Positions 21,747 through 30,760 of a stretch of DNA of 64,000 nucleotides are shown here, in pieces. Position numbers and translations under genes: made by a program. The notes beneath the pieces were generated by a model, which made no database searches, was not told the DNA's origin, and worked only from the letters and a program-made list of their open reading frames with translations. Position 1 is the first letter of the stretch; each line of letters begins with the position of its first letter. The DNA comes from Confluentibacter flavum (GTDB taxonomy: Bacteria > Bacteroidota > Bacteroidia > Flavobacteriales > Flavobacteriaceae). The DNA lies in NCBI RefSeq assembly GCF_002843175.1, contig NZ_PJEO01000014.1, forward strand, positions 62,001 through 126,000, given 5' to 3'.

Positions 21747-21858
21747 AGCAGTCAACCAAAACTGCTCAATACTTTATTTAGTCTTTTTAAAGTCCTTAAA
21801 GACATCATTTCCCATTATTTGAATGTATCCATTTTCATGTTTGTATATGTTTCATACT

Positions 21859-21909
21859 GTTAATATTTGTTTAACTTTTAATTTAAATCATTAAACATTT
21901 GTATCTTTG
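21859..21909 (+). promoter_or_regulatory. Operator/promoter module A of the photo-stress cluster
   Basis: Dyad GTTAA-N7-TTAAC (21859-21875), a second dyad TGTTTAA-N16-TTAAACA (21868-21897), then the -7 box TATCTTTG (21902-21909), 18 bases before the tetR start. A nearly identical module stands at 26175-26226. Likely a binding site of the TetR protein encoded next door; the assignment is an inference. Confidence 0.65.
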
Positions 21910-21927
21910 AGCTATATTTATAAAGCC

Positions 21928-22584
21928 ATGGCAAAGAAGAAAGTAATAAGTGCAAAAGACATCATTACCTTTTATATGGATTATGTGTTAGAGCATAATG
22001 AACATCCAAAATCGGTGTATGCATTTGCAAAAGCAAATAATTTTGAAGAATCCTTGTTTTATACTCATTTCGGATCGTTTGAAGCAATTGAAAAACATGT
22101 ATTCAAAGTGTTTTTTGAGAATACCATCACTGTGTTGGAAAAGAATGAGGATTACAAGACATATGACTCACGCAACAAGTTATTGGCATTTTACTTTACC
22201 TTTTTTGAAAACTTAACTGCCAATAGAAGTTATGTGGTGTATGCTTTTAACAAACACAAAAACAGTCTTAAAAATCTAGATGTCCTATCGGAATTAAAGC
22301 GTCATTTTTCAAAATACATTGACCAATTAGGTATTGAAACACTTGATATCAAACAGGCTCAAATTGAAAAACTTCAAAACAAAGCCATTAGCGAATCTGC
22401 TTGGATTCAACTGCTGGTAACCATGAAATTCTGGATGGATGACACGTCCGCCAGTTTTGAAAAAACCGACATTTTTATAGAAAAATCGATAAATACCAGT
22501 TTCGATATTTTGAATGTAGCACCCATTAAAAGTGTTATTGACTTTGGAAAATTTCTTTTCAAGGAAAAAATGCACATGAATTAA
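21928..22584 (+). CDS. TetR/AcrR-family transcriptional regulator
   Basis: 218-residue protein beginning MAKKKVISAKDIITFYMDYV. The N-terminal helix-turn-helix region (SVYAFAKANNFEESLFYTHFGSF) aligns with the VA..AGVS...LY.HF pattern of TetR regulators, though weakly. The rest is helical, as expected for the ligand-binding domain. The ATG at 21928 is chosen because the -7 box at 21902-21909 would place the transcript start downstream of the alternative TTG (21907). First gene of a long co-directional cluster; 10 bases before the ABC1-kinase gene. Probably autoregulated through the adjacent dyads and controlling the cluster. Confidence 0.75.
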   Translation: MAKKKVISAKDIITFYMDYVLEHNEHPKSVYAFAKANNFEESLFYTHFGSFEAIEKHVFKVFFENTITVLEKNEDYKTYDSRNKLLAFYFTFFENLTANRSYVVYAFNKHKNSLKNLDVLSELKRHFSKYIDQLGIETLDIKQAQIEKLQNKAISESAWIQLLVTMKFWMDDTSASFEKTDIFIEKSINTSFDILNVAPIKSVIDFGKFLFKEKMHMN

Positions 22585-22594
22585 AAAATAATTA

Positions 22595-23905
22595 ATGAAA
22601 ACCATAGACAGTATACCTACTTCAAAAATGCAACGTGCCAGTAAATTGGTATCAACAGGCGCCAAAGTCGGTGTTAATTACCTCAAGTATTATGGGGATA
22701 AAATGATAAACCCTGAGACAGAGGCTAAAGATCGTTTAAACAAAAATAATGCGGAAGATATTTATGATGGACTGAAACAACTAAAAGGAAGTGCTTTAAA
22801 AGTAGCGCAAATGTTAAGCATGGAAAAAAGTATTTTACCTCAGGCTTACGTTGAAAAATTTTCGCTTTCGCAATTTTCTGTACCGCCATTATCCGCGCCC
22901 CTAGTTTTAAAAACATTCAAAACGTATTTTGGGAAATCGCCAAATGAGATATTCGATACTTTTAATGCAACTTCTGTAAACGCCGCAAGCATCGGACAAG
23001 TCCATATTGCGGAAAAAGAAGGGAAGAAACTTGCTGTGAAAATCCAATATCCAGGAGTTGCACAAAGTATCGCGTCAGATTTGGCTATGGTAAAGCCTAT
23101 AGCCATGAGCATGTTTAATATCAAAGGAAAGGATTCCGATAAATATTTTAAGGAAGTAGAAAATAAACTTATTGAGGAAACAGATTATGTGTTGGAAATG
23201 AAGCAAAGTAAAGAAATTGCTTTAGCTTGCTCTCACATTTCCAACCTATTGTTCCCAAATTATTATGAAGATTGGTCCTGTGAACGCATCATTACCATGG
23301 ATTATATGGAAGGTGAACATATTTCAGAATTCACAGCTCACAACAATAATGTTGAAAAGTCCAATAAATTAGGACAATCGCTTTGGGATTTCTATATGTA
23401 TCAAATACATGTATTGAAAAAAGTGCACGCAGACCCGCATCCTGGTAATTTTTTAATTTCAAAAAATGCAGAGCTTATCGCATTAGATTTTGGTTGTATG
23501 AAAGCCATCCCTAATGAATTTTATGTGCCCTATTTTGAATTGGCTAAACCAGAAAACATCCAAAATAAAGCTTATTTTCTATCAAAACTGTTTGAACTCG
23601 AAATTCTAAAAGCAGATGATAGTAAAGAAGAATTGGAATTTTTCACCACTATGTTTCACGAGATGCTAAGTTTATTTACACAGCCGTTTCATAACGAGCA
23701 TTTTGATTTTGCAGATAAAAATTTCTTCGGAAAAATTGCTGAACTAGGTGAACGCTATTCTAAAAGTACCGATCTCAAAAAAATGAATGGTAATAGAGGT
23801 TCTAAACATTTTATTTATATCAACCGAACCTTTTTTGGGTTGTATAATTTAATGTTCGACTTAAAGGCCAGCAACATCAAAATAAATAATTACAAGCATT
23901 TATAA
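22595..23905 (+). CDS. ABC1/AarF (UbiB-like) atypical kinase
   Basis: 436-residue ABC1/ADCK family protein. Visible motifs: the KxGQ-like segment GSALKVAQMLSME, the Ala-rich loop NAASIGQVH, the ATP lysine in LAVKIQYPG, the catalytic HADPHPGNF (about 278-286) and the metal motif LDFGCMK (about 297). Relatives support quinone or isoprenoid lipid metabolism. This type has no C-terminal membrane anchors as in E. coli UbiB. It shares one base with the following flavin reductase gene (TAATG). The position in a photo-oxidative cluster suggests a lipid or quinone role under light stress. Confidence 0.87.
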   Translation: MKTIDSIPTSKMQRASKLVSTGAKVGVNYLKYYGDKMINPETEAKDRLNKNNAEDIYDGLKQLKGSALKVAQMLSMEKSILPQAYVEKFSLSQFSVPPLSAPLVLKTFKTYFGKSPNEIFDTFNATSVNAASIGQVHIAEKEGKKLAVKIQYPGVAQSIASDLAMVKPIAMSMFNIKGKDSDKYFKEVENKLIEETDYVLEMKQSKEIALACSHISNLLFPNYYEDWSCERIITMDYMEGEHISEFTAHNNNVEKSNKLGQSLWDFYMYQIHVLKKVHADPHPGNFLISKNAELIALDFGCMKAIPNEFYVPYFELAKPENIQNKAYFLSKLFELEILKADDSKEELEFFTTMFHEMLSLFTQPFHNEHFDFADKNFFGKIAELGERYSKSTDLKKMNGNRGSKHFIYINRTFFGLYNLMFDLKASNIKINNYKHL

Positions 23906-24528
23906 TGGCTTATTTCAGCAACAAGGACATTTCAGAATTAAATCATTTTTATAAAATAAATCTTATCAACAGTTGTTCTGGCTATAAATCAGCAAACTTA
24001 ATTGGCACAAAATCAGCTAATGGTATTTCTAATGTGGCCATTTTTAGTTCGGTAATTCACCTAGGTTCAGAACCCGCATTGTTAGGTTTTATTTTAAGAC
24101 CAGCAACCGTTACGCGCAATACCTACGAGAATATTAAAGAAACTGGGGTTTATACCATAAATCATGTACACCAAGCCATTATTGAGGATGCGCATCATAC
24201 CTCCGCAAAATACGAGTCATCCATTTCAGAATTTGATATGACTGCATTGGAAGAAGCGTATTTAAACAATCTTTACGCCCCTTATGTTAAAAATGCGCCT
24301 GTTCAAATAGCCATGAATTATGTTGAAGAATACCCTATTAAAGAAAACGGTACCATCCTTTTGGTTGGAGAAATCCAGCATTTAAACATCAATGATCATC
24401 TTTTAAAAGATGATGGCTTTGTCAATTTATTAGAAGCAAATGTTGTTGCTATTAATGGTTTAGATAGTTACACTGTGCCCATGTCACATACACGGTTGGC
24501 TTACCAAAGACCTAAAAAATCATCATAA
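23905..24528 (+). CDS. Flavin reductase family protein
   Basis: 207-residue FMN-binding split-barrel protein of the flavin reductase-like group. The segment LLGFILRPATVTRNTYENIKETG and YTINHVHQ match the flavin-binding core. It may supply reduced flavin or act as an FMN oxidoreductase; no partner monooxygenase is adjacent. One-base overlap with the ABC1 kinase and zero-base gap to the next SDR gene show a tight operon. Confidence 0.82.
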   Translation: MAYFSNKDISELNHFYKINLINSCSGYKSANLIGTKSANGISNVAIFSSVIHLGSEPALLGFILRPATVTRNTYENIKETGVYTINHVHQAIIEDAHHTSAKYESSISEFDMTALEEAYLNNLYAPYVKNAPVQIAMNYVEEYPIKENGTILLVGEIQHLNINDHLLKDDGFVNLLEANVVAINGLDSYTVPMSHTRLAYQRPKKSS

Positions 24529-25950
24529 ATGAAAATACTCGTTACAGGTGCCACTGGTTATATTGGTAAAAGGCTCATCCCTTTATTAATCCAAGAGGGT
24601 CATGATATTGTGTGCACTGTAAGAGATACGATGCGTGCAGATAAAGGTTATTTGAAAGAAGAAAAAGTTTCTTTTGTTCAAGTAAATTTTTTGAATGAAG
24701 ATACTTTAAAAAATATTCCAAAGAATATCGATGTTGCTTATTACTTGATACATTCCATGTCTAATGCCTCAGAAGATTTTAGTATTCTGGAAGCTAACTG
24801 TGCTTTGAATTTTAAAAATAGCATGGAACAAACTGCTGTGAAACAAGTTATTTATTTAAGTGGCATCACAAACGAAAAAGAACTTTCCAAACATCTAAGT
24901 TCACGTAAGCATGTAGAAGAGGTTTTACAATCAAATACCTATGCATTAACCATTTTTAAAGCTGGTATTATTGTCGGTTCTGGCAGTTCTTCTTTTGAAA
25001 TTATAAGGGATTTGGTTGAAAAACTACCTTTTATGATAGCACCAAAATGGCTGAATACAAAAACACAGCCTATTGCGGTAAGGGATGTTTTGTCCTTTTT
25101 AGTAAATAGTGCCGGAAATACAACTTTATACAATACCTCTTATGATATTTTCGGACCAGAAATATTGACCTATAAAGAGATGTTACTTAAGTTTGCTGAA
25201 GTACGAAAACTTAAAAGATATATCGTCACTGTTCCTGTGATGACGCCTAAATTATCATCATATTGGTTGTATTTTGTGACGTCCACATCCTATAAATTGG
25301 CGACGACTTTGGTAGATAGTATGGGCGTTCAAATTATTGGAAAACCGAGTAATATCAACAGTGTTCTAGGTGTTTCACCCTTAACTTACAAGAAAGCTGT
25401 GGAGTTAGCTTTTGAGAAAATTGAGCAAAATAGTATTATTTCAAGTTGGAAAGATTCTTTGGTCAGTAGCGGCAGATTGGGAAATGATTTACATAAATAC
25501 ATTAACGTTCCACAATTTGGGTGTTTTAAAGATTACAAAGAAAGTAAGGTCCAAAATGAAACCGATACACTGGATAAAATTTGGGCCATTGGCGGTACCA
25601 ATGGTTGGTATTATGGTAACTTTTTATGGAAAATCCGAGGATATATCGATAAACTTTTTGGAGGCATTGGATTAAGACGAGGCAGAACGAGTCCCACGGA
25701 TTTGGATGCTGGCGATGCCCTAGACTTTTGGCGTGTTATTTTTGCAGATAAGTCACAAAAAAAATTATTGCTTTATGCCGAAATGAAGCTTCCGGGCGAA
25801 GCTTGGTTAGAATTCAAAATCGAAGATGGCATTTTAAAACAAACAGCCACATTCAGACCTCGTGGATTGGTTGGCAGATTGTATTGGTATGCTGTTTTAC
25901 CGTTCCATGGGATTATTTTTAATGGATTGATCAAAGAATTAGCCCATTAA
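24529..25950 (+). CDS. SDR-family NAD(P)-binding protein with DUF2867 domain
   Basis: 473-residue protein. The N-terminal extended-SDR fold (LVTGATGYIGKRLIPLL, residues 3-19) is followed by a C-terminal DUF2867 domain (about 330-473), with RGYIDKLFGGIGLRRGR and a WLEFKIEDG...RPRGLVGRLYWY end. This two-domain protein occurs widely near photolyase and UbiB-like genes. The substrate is unknown. The start directly abuts the flavin reductase stop codon. Confidence 0.87.
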   Translation: MKILVTGATGYIGKRLIPLLIQEGHDIVCTVRDTMRADKGYLKEEKVSFVQVNFLNEDTLKNIPKNIDVAYYLIHSMSNASEDFSILEANCALNFKNSMEQTAVKQVIYLSGITNEKELSKHLSSRKHVEEVLQSNTYALTIFKAGIIVGSGSSSFEIIRDLVEKLPFMIAPKWLNTKTQPIAVRDVLSFLVNSAGNTTLYNTSYDIFGPEILTYKEMLLKFAEVRKLKRYIVTVPVMTPKLSSYWLYFVTSTSYKLATTLVDSMGVQIIGKPSNINSVLGVSPLTYKKAVELAFEKIEQNSIISSWKDSLVSSGRLGNDLHKYINVPQFGCFKDYKESKVQNETDTLDKIWAIGGTNGWYYGNFLWKIRGYIDKLFGGIGLRRGRTSPTDLDAGDALDFWRVIFADKSQKKLLLYAEMKLPGEAWLEFKIEDGILKQTATFRPRGLVGRLYWYAVLPFHGIIFNGLIKELAH

Positions 25951-25953
25951 AAC

Positions 25954-26088
25954 ATGATTAAAAAACAACACTTACCTCAAAAAACATGTGTTGTTTGTCA
26001 ATTGCCATTTACGTGGCGAAAAAAATGGGAAAAGAACTGGGAATCCTTTAAAAATCACGCTGGAATTCTCAAAAAAATTCTATTGTAA
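25954..26088 (+). CDS. DUF2256-like small zinc protein with altered C-terminus
   Basis: 44-residue frame starting [20 protein letters not shown], then [13 protein letters not shown]. This is the DUF2256 signature (KxLPxKxCxxCxRPFxWRKKWxxxWxxVxYC), a family often encoded beside photolyases. The second half of the expected zinc site (YCSxxC) is missing; the frame continues as [11 protein letters not shown] and stops. In the neighbouring frame (26078-26092) FYCKK is readable just before a stop, so a slip in the run of seven A (26071-26077) may have damaged the end. It lies three bases behind the SDR gene. Confidence 0.65.
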
Positions 26089-26174
26089 AAAATGAAAGTC
26101 TTCACATTTTAAATAGCATACTCTAGCTGAGCGTAAATAGTATTACTAATTTTACGGTAATACATGCCTAAAAT

Positions 26175-26226
26175 GTTAATTTTTGTTTAACATATATTTA
26201 ATAATGTTAAACATTTTATATATTTG
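26175..26226 (+). promoter_or_regulatory. Operator/promoter module B of the photo-stress cluster
   Basis: GTTAA-N7-TTAAC (26175-26191), TGTTTAA-N16-TTAAACA (26184-26213) and -7 box TATATTTG (26219-26226). The elements have the same order and nearly the same spacing as module A before tetR. It should start a second transcript at or next to the ATG at 26231. Confidence 0.65.
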
Positions 26227-26230
26227 GTGT

Positions 26231-26659
26231 ATGGTATTAGACACCACATATAAAAATAAAGAACACGAAAACCTTATCAATGATTTGGTTGGAAAACGCT
26301 TTTCGTTTTTACAGTCAATTAAAATGAAAGGCATCGGTTCTAAACGTATGATTATAGACGAGGTTAGTCCGAATATGAAAACATATACCAACAAAATTTA
26401 CTATGTTAATTATGCCAATATTGAAATGCGCCCATTTGGTATTTTAATTAGAATTAACAAAGGGTTGAGTAATTTTACCTGGGTGATTCCTTACTATCAA
26501 TTGGTGATTTATAAAACTAACGGAAGTTGCATTCACGCACAAGGCAGATTTATTAAATTCAGAAATAATATAAACTTCAAAGAAAATAAAGCATTTTTCG
26601 ATAAGCTTTTAGACAAAAAAATAGAACATGAATCCCAATACAATTTTCAGGGTATATGA
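26231..26659 (+). CDS. Unknown protein in photolyase cluster
   Basis: 142-residue soluble protein that I cannot assign. It is rich in beta-strand-like segments (KRMIIDEVSPNMKTYTNKIYYVNYANIEM, FGILIRINKG, NFTWVIPYYQLVIYK), with a possible PH-like barrel, and ends in a lysine-rich helix. The ATG at 26231 is only five bases after a TATATTTG box, so the message may be leaderless; upstream in-frame ATGs (26183, 26204) overlap the promoter. Its end overlaps the TIGR03643 gene by four bases (ATGA), implying coupling. It opens the second transcript of the cluster. Confidence 0.7.
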   Translation: MVLDTTYKNKEHENLINDLVGKRFSFLQSIKMKGIGSKRMIIDEVSPNMKTYTNKIYYVNYANIEMRPFGILIRINKGLSNFTWVIPYYQLVIYKTNGSCIHAQGRFIKFRNNINFKENKAFFDKLLDKKIEHESQYNFQGI

Positions 26660-26934
26660 TGGTTTTTTCGGAAATTGATATAGATAGAATCATAGAAATG
26701 GCTTGGGAAGACCGAACCACTTTTGAAGCTATTAAATTTCAATTTCATATCAATGAACAAGAGGTTATTGAAGTGATGCGGCGCGAACTGAAATCTTGTA
26801 GTTTTAAAAGATGGCGGAAGCGTGTACAAGGTCGCGCCACAAAACATGAAAAATTAAGAAGTTTTGACTTAGGAAGGTTTAAATGCTACAGGCAAAAACA
26901 TATTTCCAATAACATGATATCAAAAAGTTGTTGA
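26656..26934 (+). CDS. TIGR03643 family protein
   Basis: 92-residue basic protein with the TIGR03643 signature IDRIIEMAWEDRTTFEAI, then a helix-turn-helix-like part (INEQEVIEVMRRELK), SFKRWRKRVQGRATKHEK, and a basic tail with KCYRQKHISN. The family is usually found beside photolyase/cryptochrome genes; its molecular role is not known to me. The basic surface and helical pattern would allow DNA binding. The ATG can be 26656 or 26659; 26656 overlaps the upstream stop codon. Confidence 0.85.
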   Translation: MMVFSEIDIDRIIEMAWEDRTTFEAIKFQFHINEQEVIEVMRRELKSCSFKRWRKRVQGRATKHEKLRSFDLGRFKCYRQKHISNNMISKSC

Positions 26935-27070: not shown

Positions 27071-27286
27071 ATGGATATTGTTAACAAAGCTTTAGAATTT
27101 GAACAACGCAAACAAGTATTTAAAACAACTAGCGAACGCATAGAGGCATCAAGAGAGGTAAAAGATCTTATTTTAGATTTGAACACGGTTTATAAAACCG
27201 AAAAAGATCCGAAATTAATGGATATTATGAAACGCCTAACTGCCATCAAACAAAAAATAGAAAAGCGTCTTAAGGGACGCCCATAA
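27071..27286 (+). CDS. Small helical conserved protein
   Basis: 71-residue, highly charged protein (MDIVNKALEFEQRKQVFKTT start, KKRLTAIKQKIEKRLKGRP-like end) predicted entirely alpha-helical, possibly coiled coil. I do not recognise a family. A 136-base gap separates it from the TIGR03643 gene, and it is five bases before the next SDR gene, with which it is surely co-transcribed. Confidence 0.65.
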   Translation: MDIVNKALEFEQRKQVFKTTSERIEASREVKDLILDLNTVYKTEKDPKLMDIMKRLTAIKQKIEKRLKGRP

Positions 27287-27291
27287 TTAAA

Positions 27292-27975
27292 ATGAAAACG
27301 ATATTAATAATTGGAGGTAGCAAAGGTATAGGACATTCCATTGTAAATGCATTAGTAAATACCCATAACATTATTAATATCAGCAGAAGCACACCGCAAC
27401 TGACTCACGATAATTTAAAGCATTACAGTTGTGATATTACAAAAGATGATCTTCCTGATATTGAAAAAGCAGACGGATTAATATATTGTCCGGGGAGCAT
27501 CAATTTAAAACCCATATCCCGATTAAGCATCGACGAGTTTAAAGAGGATTTCGAAATCAATGTTTTGGGTGCCGTCAAGGCAATTCAAAAGTATTTGCCT
27601 ATTCTTAAAAATGGAAACAAACCTGCCATCATTCTTTTTAGTACTGTGGCCGCAAAATTAGGAATGCCATTTCATGCGTCTATTGCCAGTGCCAAAGCTG
27701 GTGTTGAAGGCTTGGTGAAATCTTTAGGAGCCGAATTAGCACCAACCATTAGGATAAATGCCATTGCACCAACGGTTACGGATACCGAATTGGCTTCCAA
27801 ATTGTTACGTAACGATAAAATGATTGAAGCCATCACAGAGCGTCATCCTCTTAAAAAAATATTAAAACCTGACGAAGTTGCAGAAATGGCTGTATTTTTA
27901 TTATCAGAAAAAGCAGCGTCCATCTCTGGGCAAATATTCCAAATGGATTGTGGCATTGTTTCATTCAAAATATAA
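27292..27975 (+). CDS. SDR-family oxidoreductase lacking the catalytic tyrosine
   Basis: 227-residue short-chain dehydrogenase. The cofactor loop is GGSKGIGHSI (residues 7-16), and the C-terminal end (AASISGQIFQMDCGIVSF) is typical. In the active-site region FSTVAAKLGMPFHASIASAKAG the Ser and Lys are present, but the position four before the Lys is Ile, not Tyr. Relatives in photolyase clusters seem to share this pattern, so it may be an unconventional enzyme or binding protein. Five bases after the preceding gene. Confidence 0.82.
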   Translation: MKTILIIGGSKGIGHSIVNALVNTHNIINISRSTPQLTHDNLKHYSCDITKDDLPDIEKADGLIYCPGSINLKPISRLSIDEFKEDFEINVLGAVKAIQKYLPILKNGNKPAIILFSTVAAKLGMPFHASIASAKAGVEGLVKSLGAELAPTIRINAIAPTVTDTELASKLLRNDKMIEAITERHPLKKILKPDEVAEMAVFLLSEKAASISGQIFQMDCGIVSFKI

Positions 27976-27993
27976 TCTTATAAATTTATTCCT

Positions 27994-28533
27994 ATGAAAA
28001 AATTAATCCTGTTAAGTTTAATCCTTTTAGTATCTACAAGATCCATGTCACAAGCACCTAAATCATCTATCTACGACATCAAACTTACTGGTTTGGATGG
28101 CAGTCAAATAGACTTAAATAAGTTTAAAGGAAAACACATTTTGTTTGTCAACGTAGCCTCTAAATGTGGTTTTACGGGACAATATGCCGAATTACAAGAG
28201 CTTTATAACCAGCACAAAGGAAACCTGATGGTCATTGGGGCTCCTTGCAACCAATTTGCCAATCAAGAATCTGGAACTGCTAAAGAGATACAAGCTTTTT
28301 GCGAAGCCAATTATGGTGTGACCTTTTTAATGACGGAGAAATTAGACGTCAAAGGAGACAGTCAACATCCATTATACCAATGGTTGACAAAAGCATCAAA
28401 AAATGGCAAAGTGGATTCTGAAGTTAAATGGAATTTTCAAAAATATTTGGTGGATGGCAAAGGCAATTTAGTTGATTATTATTTATCAGCTGTAACACCT
28501 ATGGATGCCAAAATTGTCAAAAACCTACAGTGA
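27994..28533 (+). CDS. Glutathione peroxidase-family thiol peroxidase
   Basis: 179-residue GPx-like protein with an N-terminal signal (MKKLILLSLILLVSTRSMSQ), so probably periplasmic. Peroxidatic Cys58 lies in NVASKCGFTGQY, the GAPCNQFANQE motif at 83-93 supplies the Gln/Asn partners, and KWNFQKYLVD has the catalytic Trp. Cys103 may act in recycling. It reduces hydrogen or lipid peroxides, with thioredoxin or another thiol as donor, since bacillithiol rather than glutathione is expected here. Its stop codon overlaps the GTG start of tspO. Confidence 0.9.
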   Translation: MKKLILLSLILLVSTRSMSQAPKSSIYDIKLTGLDGSQIDLNKFKGKHILFVNVASKCGFTGQYAELQELYNQHKGNLMVIGAPCNQFANQESGTAKEIQAFCEANYGVTFLMTEKLDVKGDSQHPLYQWLTKASKNGKVDSEVKWNFQKYLVDGKGNLVDYYLSAVTPMDAKIVKNLQ

Positions 28534-28991
28534 AAATTTTAAAACTCATTGCTATATTTTTAATCATCAATTTTGGCGCACTAGCCATTGGCTCATGGCT
28601 CATGGATAATGGGCCAACGTCCGATTGGTACACCAATTTAAATCAAGCGCCTTGGACGCCGCCGGGATGGGTTTTTGGTGCAGCTTGGTCGTTTATAATG
28701 GTTTGTTTTTCAATATATATGGCTTACCTGTATGCTGAAGTACCAACCACCAAAATAAAAACATTATTCATCATCCAGTTTGTACTAAATGTCTCATGGA
28801 ATTACATTTTTTTCAATCAACATCTGGTAAGTTTAGGACTTTTGGTCATTGTTTTGCTCACCATATTAGTCGCTGGGTTTTTATTCACGTTTAACAAGCA
28901 GCTCAAACTTAAAAGCATCTTGATACTCCCCTATTTTGTTTGGTTGTGTATTGCAACATCCCTTAATGTCTACATTCTTTTTAATAATTAA
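28530..28991 (+). CDS. TspO/MBR family membrane protein
   Basis: 153-residue protein with five membrane helices and the TspO signature segments (DWYTNLNQAPWTPPGWVFG, WSFIMVCFSIYMAYL, NVSWNYIFF). TspO binds porphyrins and other tetrapyrroles and modulates photosynthetic or stress gene expression in other bacteria. The start is GTG at 28530, within the GPx stop (GTGA), and its stop shares a base with the SRPBCC gene (TAATG). Strong translational coupling across three genes. Confidence 0.9.
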   Translation: MKILKLIAIFLIINFGALAIGSWLMDNGPTSDWYTNLNQAPWTPPGWVFGAAWSFIMVCFSIYMAYLYAEVPTTKIKTLFIIQFVLNVSWNYIFFNQHLVSLGLLVIVLLTILVAGFLFTFNKQLKLKSILILPYFVWLCIATSLNVYILFNN

Positions 28992-29452
28992 TGAAAGTAT
29001 ATACCCTTTATAAAAAACAGCTTTTACCAATTTCAAAAAAGGAAGCTTGGTTATTTCTATCAGACCCAAAAAATTTAAAAACCATCACACCCGATTATAT
29101 GGGTTTTGATATTTTATCTGGAGCAGACAGACCCATGTTTGCTGGTCAAATCATACAATATATTGTAACTCCCTTATTAGGTATTAAAACCAAATGGGTG
29201 ACCGAAATCACACATGTGGTTGATGGCAAATATTTTGTGGATGAACAACGTTTTGGACCGTATGTCTTGTGGCATCACAAACATTTTATAAAAGAGATTG
29301 ATGGCGGTGTGGAAATGGAAGACATTATTGATTATAAAGTACCTTATGGGATTTTAGGTCAACTCGTTCAGCCTATTTTAGTCAAACCGAAATTAGAGGA
29401 AATCTTCAATTACCGAACTAAAAAATTGGAAGAACTGTTTGGTAAATTTTAA
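28991..29452 (+). CDS. SRPBCC-family (START-like) protein
   Basis: 153-residue protein with the helix-grip SRPBCC pattern: YKKQLLPISKKEAWLFLSDP start, KWVTEITHVVDGKYFVDEQRFGPYVLWHHKH and a C-terminal long helix. Such proteins bind hydrophobic small molecules or lipids. This subtype commonly lies next to photolyases and SDR/DUF2867 genes. Three bases before the photolyase gene, one-base overlap with tspO. Confidence 0.85.
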   Translation: MKVYTLYKKQLLPISKKEAWLFLSDPKNLKTITPDYMGFDILSGADRPMFAGQIIQYIVTPLLGIKTKWVTEITHVVDGKYFVDEQRFGPYVLWHHKHFIKEIDGGVEMEDIIDYKVPYGILGQLVQPILVKPKLEEIFNYRTKKLEELFGKF

Positions 29453-29455
29453 ATT

Positions 29456-30760
29456 ATGAACCCATCCATTAGCATTTTCTGGTTTCGTCGCGATCTGCGT
29501 TTAGATGATAACAAAGGTCTATTTGAAGCTTTAAAGGACGAAGAAAACATATTGCCTATTTTTATTTTTGATAAACAGATTTTAGAGTCACTTCCTGAAG
29601 ATGATGCGCGCGTCACGTTTATTTATGAAACACTCCAAACGATGCGCCATACACTCCAAACTAAGTATGACAGTAATTTGGCTTTGTATTATGGAACTCC
29701 TTTAGACGTTTACAAACAATTGATGGACACCTACAACATCAAAGCGGTTTATACCAATCATGATTACGAACCGTATGCCAAAGAACGGGATGCTGAAATT
29801 AAGTCTTTATTGGAAAAGCATCACATTATTTTTAAAACGTATAAAGACCAAGTCATTTTCGAGAAAAATGAGATTATAAAAAGTGATGGCACCCCTTATG
29901 TGGTTTATACACCATATATGAAATTATGGAAACAAACATTTAAATCCGTTACCCTTGAAACCTACAACACTGAGGCTTATTTTAAAAATTTAATCAGAAC
30001 TAGCGATGTTCCCAACCTCACTTTAAACGCTATTGGTTTTAAAAAATCATCACAAATCATTGCGGATTACAACGTCAATTCCCACCTTATTCAAAACTAC
30101 GAAGCCACTAGAAATTTCCCCGTACAAGATGCCACCTCCAAATTAGGACCGCATTTACGCTTTGGAACGGTGAGCATTCGCGCCATGGTTAAAAAAGCGG
30201 TTTCAGAAAACAATGAGATTTTTTGGCAAGAACTCATTTGGCGCGAATTTTTTATGCAAATTCTGTGGCACTTTCCACATACGGTGACACAAAGTTTTAA
30301 ACCGCAATACGACCGGATTGTTTGGCGAAATAATGAAGACGAATTCAAATTATGGTGTAAAGGTCAAACGGGTTATCCGTTTGTAGATGCTGGCATGCGC
30401 CAACTTAATGAAACGGGATTTATGCACAACCGGGTTCGTATGGTCGTGGGGAGTTTTTTATGCAAACATTTATTAATCGACTGGCGTTGGGGCGAAGCCT
30501 ATTTTGCCGAAAAACTGCATGATTACGACATGGCAAGCAATGTGGGCAATTGGCAATGGGTAGCTGGTTGTGGTGTGGATGCGGCACCTTACTTTAGAAT
30601 ATTCAATCCTACCACACAAATTGAAAAGTTCGATAAGGATTTGAAATACATTCATAAATGGGTTCCAGAATTTCAAGAACTTACCTATCCACAACCCATG
30701 GTGGATCATGGTTTTGCCAGGGAACGCTGTTTAAAAACTTATAAGGAGGCTTTAGCCTAA
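29456..30760 (+). CDS. Cryptochrome/photolyase family protein
   Basis: 434-residue flavoprotein of the class I photolyase/cryptochrome family. The N-terminal antenna domain begins SIFWFRRDLRLDDNKGL. The C-terminal FAD domain carries WQELIWREFFMQIL, HNRVRMVVGSFL, the WGEAYFAEKLHDYDMASN segment and NWQWVAGCGVDAAPYFRIFNP-type FAD/DNA motifs (about residues 365-385). It likely repairs cyclobutane dimers using blue light, but sequence alone does not exclude a photoreceptor. Last gene of the light/stress cluster; a small dispersed repeat follows. Confidence 0.93.
   Translation: MNPSISIFWFRRDLRLDDNKGLFEALKDEENILPIFIFDKQILESLPEDDARVTFIYETLQTMRHTLQTKYDSNLALYYGTPLDVYKQLMDTYNIKAVYTNHDYEPYAKERDAEIKSLLEKHHIIFKTYKDQVIFEKNEIIKSDGTPYVVYTPYMKLWKQTFKSVTLETYNTEAYFKNLIRTSDVPNLTLNAIGFKKSSQIIADYNVNSHLIQNYEATRNFPVQDATSKLGPHLRFGTVSIRAMVKKAVSENNEIFWQELIWREFFMQILWHFPHTVTQSFKPQYDRIVWRNNEDEFKLWCKGQTGYPFVDAGMRQLNETGFMHNRVRMVVGSFLCKHLLIDWRWGEAYFAEKLHDYDMASNVGNWQWVAGCGVDAAPYFRIFNPTTQIEKFDKDLKYIHKWVPEFQELTYPQPMVDHGFARERCLKTYKEALA

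Follow-up and report, generated by a model that had tools for sequence, protein, structure and literature searches.

An inverted dyad at two promoters of a Confluentibacter flavum gene cluster and its probable reading by a CarH/LitR-like MerR protein in Flavobacteriaceae

The half-site consensus published for the MerR-type regulator CarH is nnnnTnnACAn, which in the operators of Thermus thermophilus and Bacillus megaterium is arranged as three or four tandem 11-bp direct repeats, with a plasticity extending to one or two full repeats (PMC9304148). CarA of Myxococcus xanthus, also of the MerR type, binds as two dimers to an operator of inverted repeats at a carotenoid promoter (PMC9304148), while the class II LitR protein PmlR2 of Pseudomonas is a repressor with two boxes of the consensus T(G/A)TACA-N12-TGTA(C/T)A (PMC9758184). 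Light-induced carotenoids have been described for Chryseobacterium lacus, a species placed by its authors in Flavobacteriaceae, for which no car or lit operon was found, the regulator was left open and no operator was described (PMC7064467). These statements follow the accessible parts of the cited accounts, as do those made on the same sources below. Here, a window of 64,000 nucleotides from Confluentibacter flavum was analysed (assembly GCF_002843175.1, contig NZ_PJEO01000014.1, positions 62,001 to 126,000), in which an inverted dyad, TGTTTAA-N16-TTAAACA, stands in two modules (M1 and M2) of a gene cluster including a photolyase gene. The dyad is conserved across the family and recurs beside a merR gene adjoining carotenoid genes, whose product is probably the regulator of M1 and M2. 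In the literature searched, which left out most subscription papers, none of the accessible texts named a regulator or operator of light-response genes in Flavobacteriaceae, and none described this operator or regulon.

The modules M1 (21859-21909) and M2 (26175-26226) precede the gene of a TetR-fold protein (tetR) and that of a protein of 142 amino acids (aa), respectively, and consist of the following elements:

21859-21875: GTTAA-N7-TTAAC of M1
21858-21863, plus strand: accessory half-site TGTTAA of M1, 10 bp upstream of the left arm, being the left half of GTTAA-N7-TTAAC
21868-21897, no strand assigned: operator dyad TGTTTAA-N16-TTAAACA of M1, arms 21868-21874 and 21891-21897
21902-21909, plus strand: -7 box of M1, TATCTTTG, with column conservation in relatives
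26175-26191: GTTAA-N7-TTAAC of M2
26174-26179, plus strand: accessory half-site TGTTAA of M2
26184-26213, no strand assigned: operator dyad TGTTTAA-N16-TTAAACA of M2, arms 26184-26190 and 26207-26213
26219-26226, plus strand: -7 box of M2, TATATTTG

A first-pass annotation of this stretch had claimed that both modules share the two dyads and a TAnnTTTG box with a spacing differing by one base, which agrees letter for letter with the window, since from the right arm to the TAnnTTTG box there are 4 bases in M1 but 5 in M2. The TAnnTTTG boxes are taken here to be -7 promoter boxes of the Bacteroidetes type. The same annotation had noticed no other copy in the window, and indeed TGTTTAA-N14..18-TTAAACA occurred only twice (0.03 expected), a number reached in none of 100 shuffles. 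The string GTTAATNTTTGTTTAAC was found exactly at M1 and M2 only, while its 5 window matches with up to three mismatches compare with 5.05 expected. The genome-wide motif scan that had been suggested as a check came out in the same sense, since exact sites of TGTYTAA-N16-TTARACA in the C. flavum genome (4.14 Mb, 57 contigs) were again M1 and M2 only. With up to one mismatch there were 11 sites, fewer than the 13 of a reversed control pattern; one of them is the crtI promoter, 7 others had their locus examined (6 inside open reading frames (ORFs) and 1 at the first bases of an ORF), and one further site was listed without locus. As to the shorter GTTAA-N7-TTAAC dyad, the claim stood in that it is present in both modules, but it is not special, with 9 genome sites against 21 for its control, and was rejected as an independent operator. 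Among relatives, TGTTAA as a third half-site was moderately conserved before the 142-aa gene and more weakly before tetR.

The dyad was then followed through Flavobacteriaceae. Allowing one mismatch, it was found upstream of tetR in 78 of 89 relatives (7 of 1,780 shuffles) and upstream of the 142-aa gene in 29 of 30 (2 of 600 shuffles), while the other genes of the cluster had it in 1 case out of 304. For tetR, 90 upstream regions had been taken and one (L170) excluded, six more tetR genomes lying outside the set. An overlapping set of named relatives gave 76/80 for tetR and 11/15 for the 142-aa gene. Moreover, in 40 relatives read around tetR over about 13 kb each, the dyad stood at nearly all tetR promoters and at the 142-aa gene where this was present, with the same N16 and free spacer letters. 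Because the dyad is kept while its spacers vary, it is the elements, rather than the whole segment, that are under selection, as the first-pass annotation had held, and its conservation at both promoters in most relatives supports the further prediction that one regulator probably controls both units. Among the 11 tetR upstreams without a match, two (L105 and L186) show N17 between the arms, and in another (L198) the dyad stands 369 bp upstream. In 104 genomes from other families of the order, the motif was at background level, 5 of them having a match with up to one mismatch against 15 for the control pattern; two of those 5 genomes belong to one family (f7), one of them with an exact site.

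The checks suggested with the first-pass annotation took the TetR protein itself as the regulator, a reading that is not supported by the comparison with a second locus. The C. flavum genome has two MerR_1 matches, the longer of which carries a B12-binding_2 domain, and the gene of the latter (merR, contig C28:11106-12005) lies directly upstream of carotenoid genes, unlinked to the window cluster. These encode, in this order, a phytoene desaturase-like protein (crtI), a phytoene synthase (crtB), a hydroxylase-like protein and a lycopene cyclase. Between merR and crtI, the crtI promoter has the dyad with one mismatch, TGTTTAA-N16-TTTAACA. The sample of merR loci comprised 101, including a second copy in one genome and leaving aside 20 more loci and a marginal match. 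Of these, 56 had the dyad immediately behind merR and 22 had it upstream, compared with 8 and 15 of 1,010 shuffles, respectively; in C. flavum, the one genome in which gene identity was established by family search, the downstream site is that of the crtI promoter. Furthermore, 64 of the 101 merR genes showed a looser dyad over their start codon, whose right arm TGAACA falls in the start region ATGAACA (a loose pattern scored without shuffle control), and the left arm lay 23 bp before the start codon in all 40 listed rows of these 64 matches. In C. flavum this site reads TGTTCAA-N16-ATGAACA, with three mismatches, and is by itself at chance (3 locus matches vs. 1.85 expected); it rests on the relatives. 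The three arm types, TAAACA, TAGACA and TGAACA, all fit TnnACA. At crtI the -7 box lies between the dyad arms. In front of tetR and the 142-aa gene, about 4-6 bases separate the end of the right arm from the -7 box, so that the dyad covers the upstream promoter and spacer. As for the surroundings of the carotenoid locus, reading of translations gave a transposase-like ORF at the contig end (L010:15-893) and a SusC/SusD/hybrid-sensor-like set upstream of merR (L010:1077-10699).

Gene presence was tabulated for 149 genomes, with tetR in 95 (a marginal match in G007 dropped), a close merR in 111 and a distant merR in 9 (a marginal match in G027 dropped). The motif with up to one mismatch was found in 77 of the 86 genomes having both genes, in 15/25 with merR and without tetR, in 3/9 with tetR and without a close merR (two of the three being only 81% and 73% complete), and in 6/29 with neither, whereas the control pattern matched in 21 of all 149. 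The table points to MerR, but more weakly than the two comparisons that follow, because the motif count has a background. Examined by locus, 16 of 21 genomes with merR and without tetR (out of the 25) kept the dyad at merR or just behind it. Finally, the arm base follows the MerR recognition helix, with exceptions. The C. flavum helix, RIWEKRY, is of the CarH type and one residue off the CarH sequence RxWERRY, while 8 of the 101 MerRs have RKWE(S/T/E)RY. At sites upstream of merR, the right arm was TTAGACA in 7 of 8 cases with an RKW helix and TTAAACA in 12 of 13 with RIW. At tetR promoters, a C/G in at least one arm occurred in 3/3 RKW genomes having a dyad there, against 2/61 RIW genomes; in G029, the genome of the sister protein with RIW, the tetR promoter reads TGTTTAA/TTAAACA. 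The regulator of M1 and M2 is thus probably the MerR and not the TetR protein.

The C. flavum MerR combines MerR_1 and B12-binding_2 domains (PF02607 match), and its best solved relatives are Thermus CarH. The motif Wx9EH was found in 95 of the 101 MerRs, that of C. flavum included (searched anywhere in the protein, and in place in the aligned rows), and the ligand-histidine motif E/DxHxxG/A in 98; SxT/V occurred in 5 and a His after the Trp in 2. A cobalamin adenosyltransferase gene is present in the genome. The TnnACA half-site, a MerR-type regulator with Wx9EH and ligand His, carotenoid neighbours and an operator over the promoter are shared with CarH systems, unlike the SxT/V...GG part of the B12 motif, which flavobacterial MerRs do not keep (PMC9304148). 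The inverted arrangement at a carotenoid promoter is shared with CarA, but CarA is B12-independent and lacks the Trp of the Wx9EH kept by these 95 MerRs (PMC9304148). With the class II LitR proteins PplR1/PmlR2 there is likeness in the LitR-dependent light-inducible genes, which include photolyase, cryptochrome-like and folE genes, and in an SDR gene of the cluster; the box sequence and spacing are different, the Pseudomonas protein is switched by a LOV protein, and the accessible account names no TetR-fold/ABC1 pair (PMC9758184). MliR of Bizionia, as far as its accessible description goes, lacks an effector domain and was set aside (PMC9478572). As the CarH features are kept and the full B12 motif is missing, the flavobacterial MerR is regarded as working like CarH/LitR and is not filed as CarH. 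Apart from these proteins, a distant class of MerR/B12-type paralogues (L209-L218) was noticed, mostly with an RKW helix and with a dyad of their own close to the start codon, in which N17 and an arm reading TTAGACA are frequent.

Other dyads in the relatives outline a candidate regulon. Exact ones precede genes for a cryptochrome/photolyase, GTP cyclohydrolase I (folE), beta-carotene 15,15'-dioxygenase, DUF2805 and fasciclin-domain proteins. A total of 20 extra dyad regions were picked from among the matches listed because they seemed to lie apart from merR, tetR and the 142-aa gene, although at least one of them (L303) had a 142-aa ORF behind the dyad after all; regions L302, L303, L304 and L307 stood outside the family search. 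Of 20 proteins searched, 7 fell into families linked to light, pigment or the cluster, or were fasciclins (photolyase, GTP cyclohydrolase I, beta-carotene dioxygenase, DUF2805 and three fasciclins), 7 into others (NUDIX, HSP90, Rieske, MORN, DUF2452, DUF2911 and a tRNA methyltransferase) and 6 into none. For two of the 20, the NUDIX protein and one of those without family, the start is not located at the dyad.

Taken together, it is likely that M1 and M2 are operators of one CarH/LitR-like MerR repressor, acting in the dark and released by light via cobalamin, so that the cluster would be induced jointly with carotenoids. We infer such binding and repression, and the dependence on light and cobalamin, from comparison of sequences. 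The operator would consist of two TnnACA half-sites in inverted orientation (TGTTTA...TAAACA), lying over the promoter or next to it, and repression is the simplest reading because either position of the dyad would block RNA polymerase. Bound in the dark, the MerR would keep RNA polymerase from M1 and M2 and would also shut merR as well as the crtI-crtB-hydroxylase-lycopene cyclase genes. Light is the likely signal, which a cobalamin in the C-terminal domain would sense, and release would induce photolyase/cryptochromes together with carotenoids and with the accessory genes that follow M1 and M2. Since the gene of the likely repressor adjoins carotenoid genes, the genes for pigment and for DNA repair are probably induced at the same time, with light as a possible trigger.

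Several observations weigh against this reading. Dyads also precede HSP90, DUF2911, DUF2452, Rieske and MORN genes, which have no evident link to light, and 31 of the 101 merR loci had no dyad within one mismatch on either side. Eight tetR upstreams (L091, L101, L102, L174, L175, L178, L194 and L223) were without dyad by all scans made, 5 of them in genomes with a close merR. In G018, the fourth of the RKW genomes that have tetR, the dyad is absent from the tetR upstream, and RIW genomes had a G in the right arm in 7 of 56 crtI-side sites downstream of merR. Moreover, the co-variation of helix and arm may be a single evolutionary event, because the RKW proteins group together in a single, weakly supported clade (0.52). 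Unlike the tandem 11-bp direct repeats of CarH operators (PMC9304148), the two strong TnnACA half-sites are inverted and N16 apart, the single weak third one, 10 bp upstream, being the only one in direct orientation. Besides, the full B12 motif, D/ExHx2G-x41-SxT/V-x22-27-GG, was found in 0 of 101 MerRs and the Pfam domain PF02310 had no match in that of C. flavum, so cobalamin binding is uncertain. Both results would suit a MerR regulator without cobalamin light sensing, responding to redox or another signal or switched by a partner as in class II LitR, in which a LOV protein, once activated by light, inhibits PmlR2 (PMC9758184). This option is nevertheless unlikely given the retention of Wx9EH, intact in myxobacteria only in CarH and not in CarA homologues (PMC9304148), together with that of the ligand His and the presence of the adenosyltransferase gene.

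It is very improbable that the TetR protein uses the dyad to repress M2 and the promoter of its own gene. TetR proteins often autoregulate, tetR is the first gene behind M1, and the predicted structure matches TetR regulators (3c07_A, Z 16.4, root-mean-square deviation (rmsd) 3.4, 197 aligned). Against this, the dyad stands at merR/crtI in the genomes without tetR counted above and is absent from the eight tetR upstreams, and the protein had no TetR_N Pfam match at E 0.001. Its second helix-turn-helix helix varies at positions 42, 43, 46 and 47 although the operator hardly varies, and is acidic at residues 40 (47/51) and 41 (51/51); by the TetR fold, these residues would face DNA. The TetR protein was set aside as dyad reader on this variable, acidic helix and on the dyad in genomes without tetR. 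A different, unlinked regulator, with the MerR as a mere fellow target, would also be compatible with the presence table, whose correlations cannot separate target from regulator, and with a helix co-variation arising in one event; it is extremely improbable in view of an arm base that tracks the MerR helix and a half-site equal to that of CarH. As to a recent duplication or a coincidence without function, the AT-rich region and the shortness of the arms would favour it, but the expectation in the window and the family-wide conservation with free spacers leave it a negligible probability. The CarH/LitR-like MerR thus remains the likely regulator of M1 and M2. The genes of the window cluster are as follows:

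21928-22584, plus strand: TetR-fold protein whose C-terminal domain is PF17931, encoded by the first gene after M1 and probably without a role as dyad reader
22595-23905, plus strand: ABC1/UbiB-type atypical kinase of the COQ8 family
23905-24528, plus strand: flavin-reductase-like protein
24529-25950, plus strand: NAD(P)-binding and DUF2867 protein, probably the SDR of the first-pass annotation
25954-26088, plus strand: DUF2256 protein, probably the last gene of the putative M1 operon in this strain
26231-26659, plus strand: 142-aa protein without Pfam family, with a predicted PH-like fold
26656-26934, plus strand: DUF2805/TIGR03643 protein
27071-30760, plus strand: remaining conserved cluster, namely a 71-aa ORF, SDR, GPx, TspO, an unclassified 153-aa protein (SRPBCC-like by reading of its translation) and photolyase

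In the window scan, the genes at 27071-30760 had no dyad of their own. Photolyases deal with light damage, and the other genes of the cluster would be expected to serve against it as well. With 91% identity, the nearest TetR proteins are those of Confluentibacter lentus and C. citreus, and tetR was found in 3 of 5 genomes of the genus. Most of the 40 relatives share the order TetR-fold, ABC1 kinase, flavin reductase, DUF2867, DUF2256, a cryptochrome block in many, and the 142-aa gene, followed by DUF2805, the 71-aa ORF, SDR, GPx, TspO, SRPBCC-like and photolyase genes, several relatives showing losses. The interval between the DUF2256 and 142-aa genes contains three photolyase/cryptochrome-type genes in C. 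lentus (437, 510 and 491 aa; L069:3557-7864), one in C. citreus (491 aa; L108:5209-6684) and none in the window strain (26088-26175); the best match of the 437-aa C. lentus protein in the C. flavum genome is the window photolyase, at 31%.

The TetR-fold protein and the adjoining kinase (21928-23905) resemble a COQ9-COQ8 pair. Human COQ9 was among the best fold rows of the former (6awl_A, Z 13.5, rmsd 4.8, 182 aligned), TetR regulators scoring the same or higher, and the protein may bind a lipid or quinone instead of DNA. The start Met of the 142-aa protein was invariant in 14 sequences, and its structure was predicted with good confidence (predicted local distance difference test score 86). 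The best rows for its fold were PH/PTB-type domains (1foe_E, Z 9.5, rmsd 2.8, 113 aligned), while Foldseek gave no match at E 0.001 or better. In front of its gene, 4 bases separate the -7 box of M2 from the start codon (window 26219-26233), and the transcript in this strain may be leaderless.

A wider proposal, which could go either way, is that of a family-wide photoregulon under a divergent CarH-like MerR with an inverted N16 TnnACA operator, one half-site of which is formed at merR by the start codon. A PH-like protein and a COQ9-COQ8-like pair for lipid or quinone would be joined in it to carotenoid synthesis, to folate, to photolyases/cryptochromes and, in some members, to the synthesis of retinal, with cobalamin/light sensing in spite of the missing SxT/V...GG. 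A MerR-type photoregulon is a known kind of system. What is new against the literature searched is the N16 spacing of inverted half-sites, the arm at the start codon and a gene set that spans the family. Marine Flavobacteriaceae are abundant, pigmented and live in sunlit waters. A 30-bp operator can be scanned for in any genome of the family, giving a short list of testable light-response targets, and it ties DUF2256, DUF2805/TIGR03643, DUF2867, the TetR-fold/ABC1 pair and the 142-aa protein to one response.

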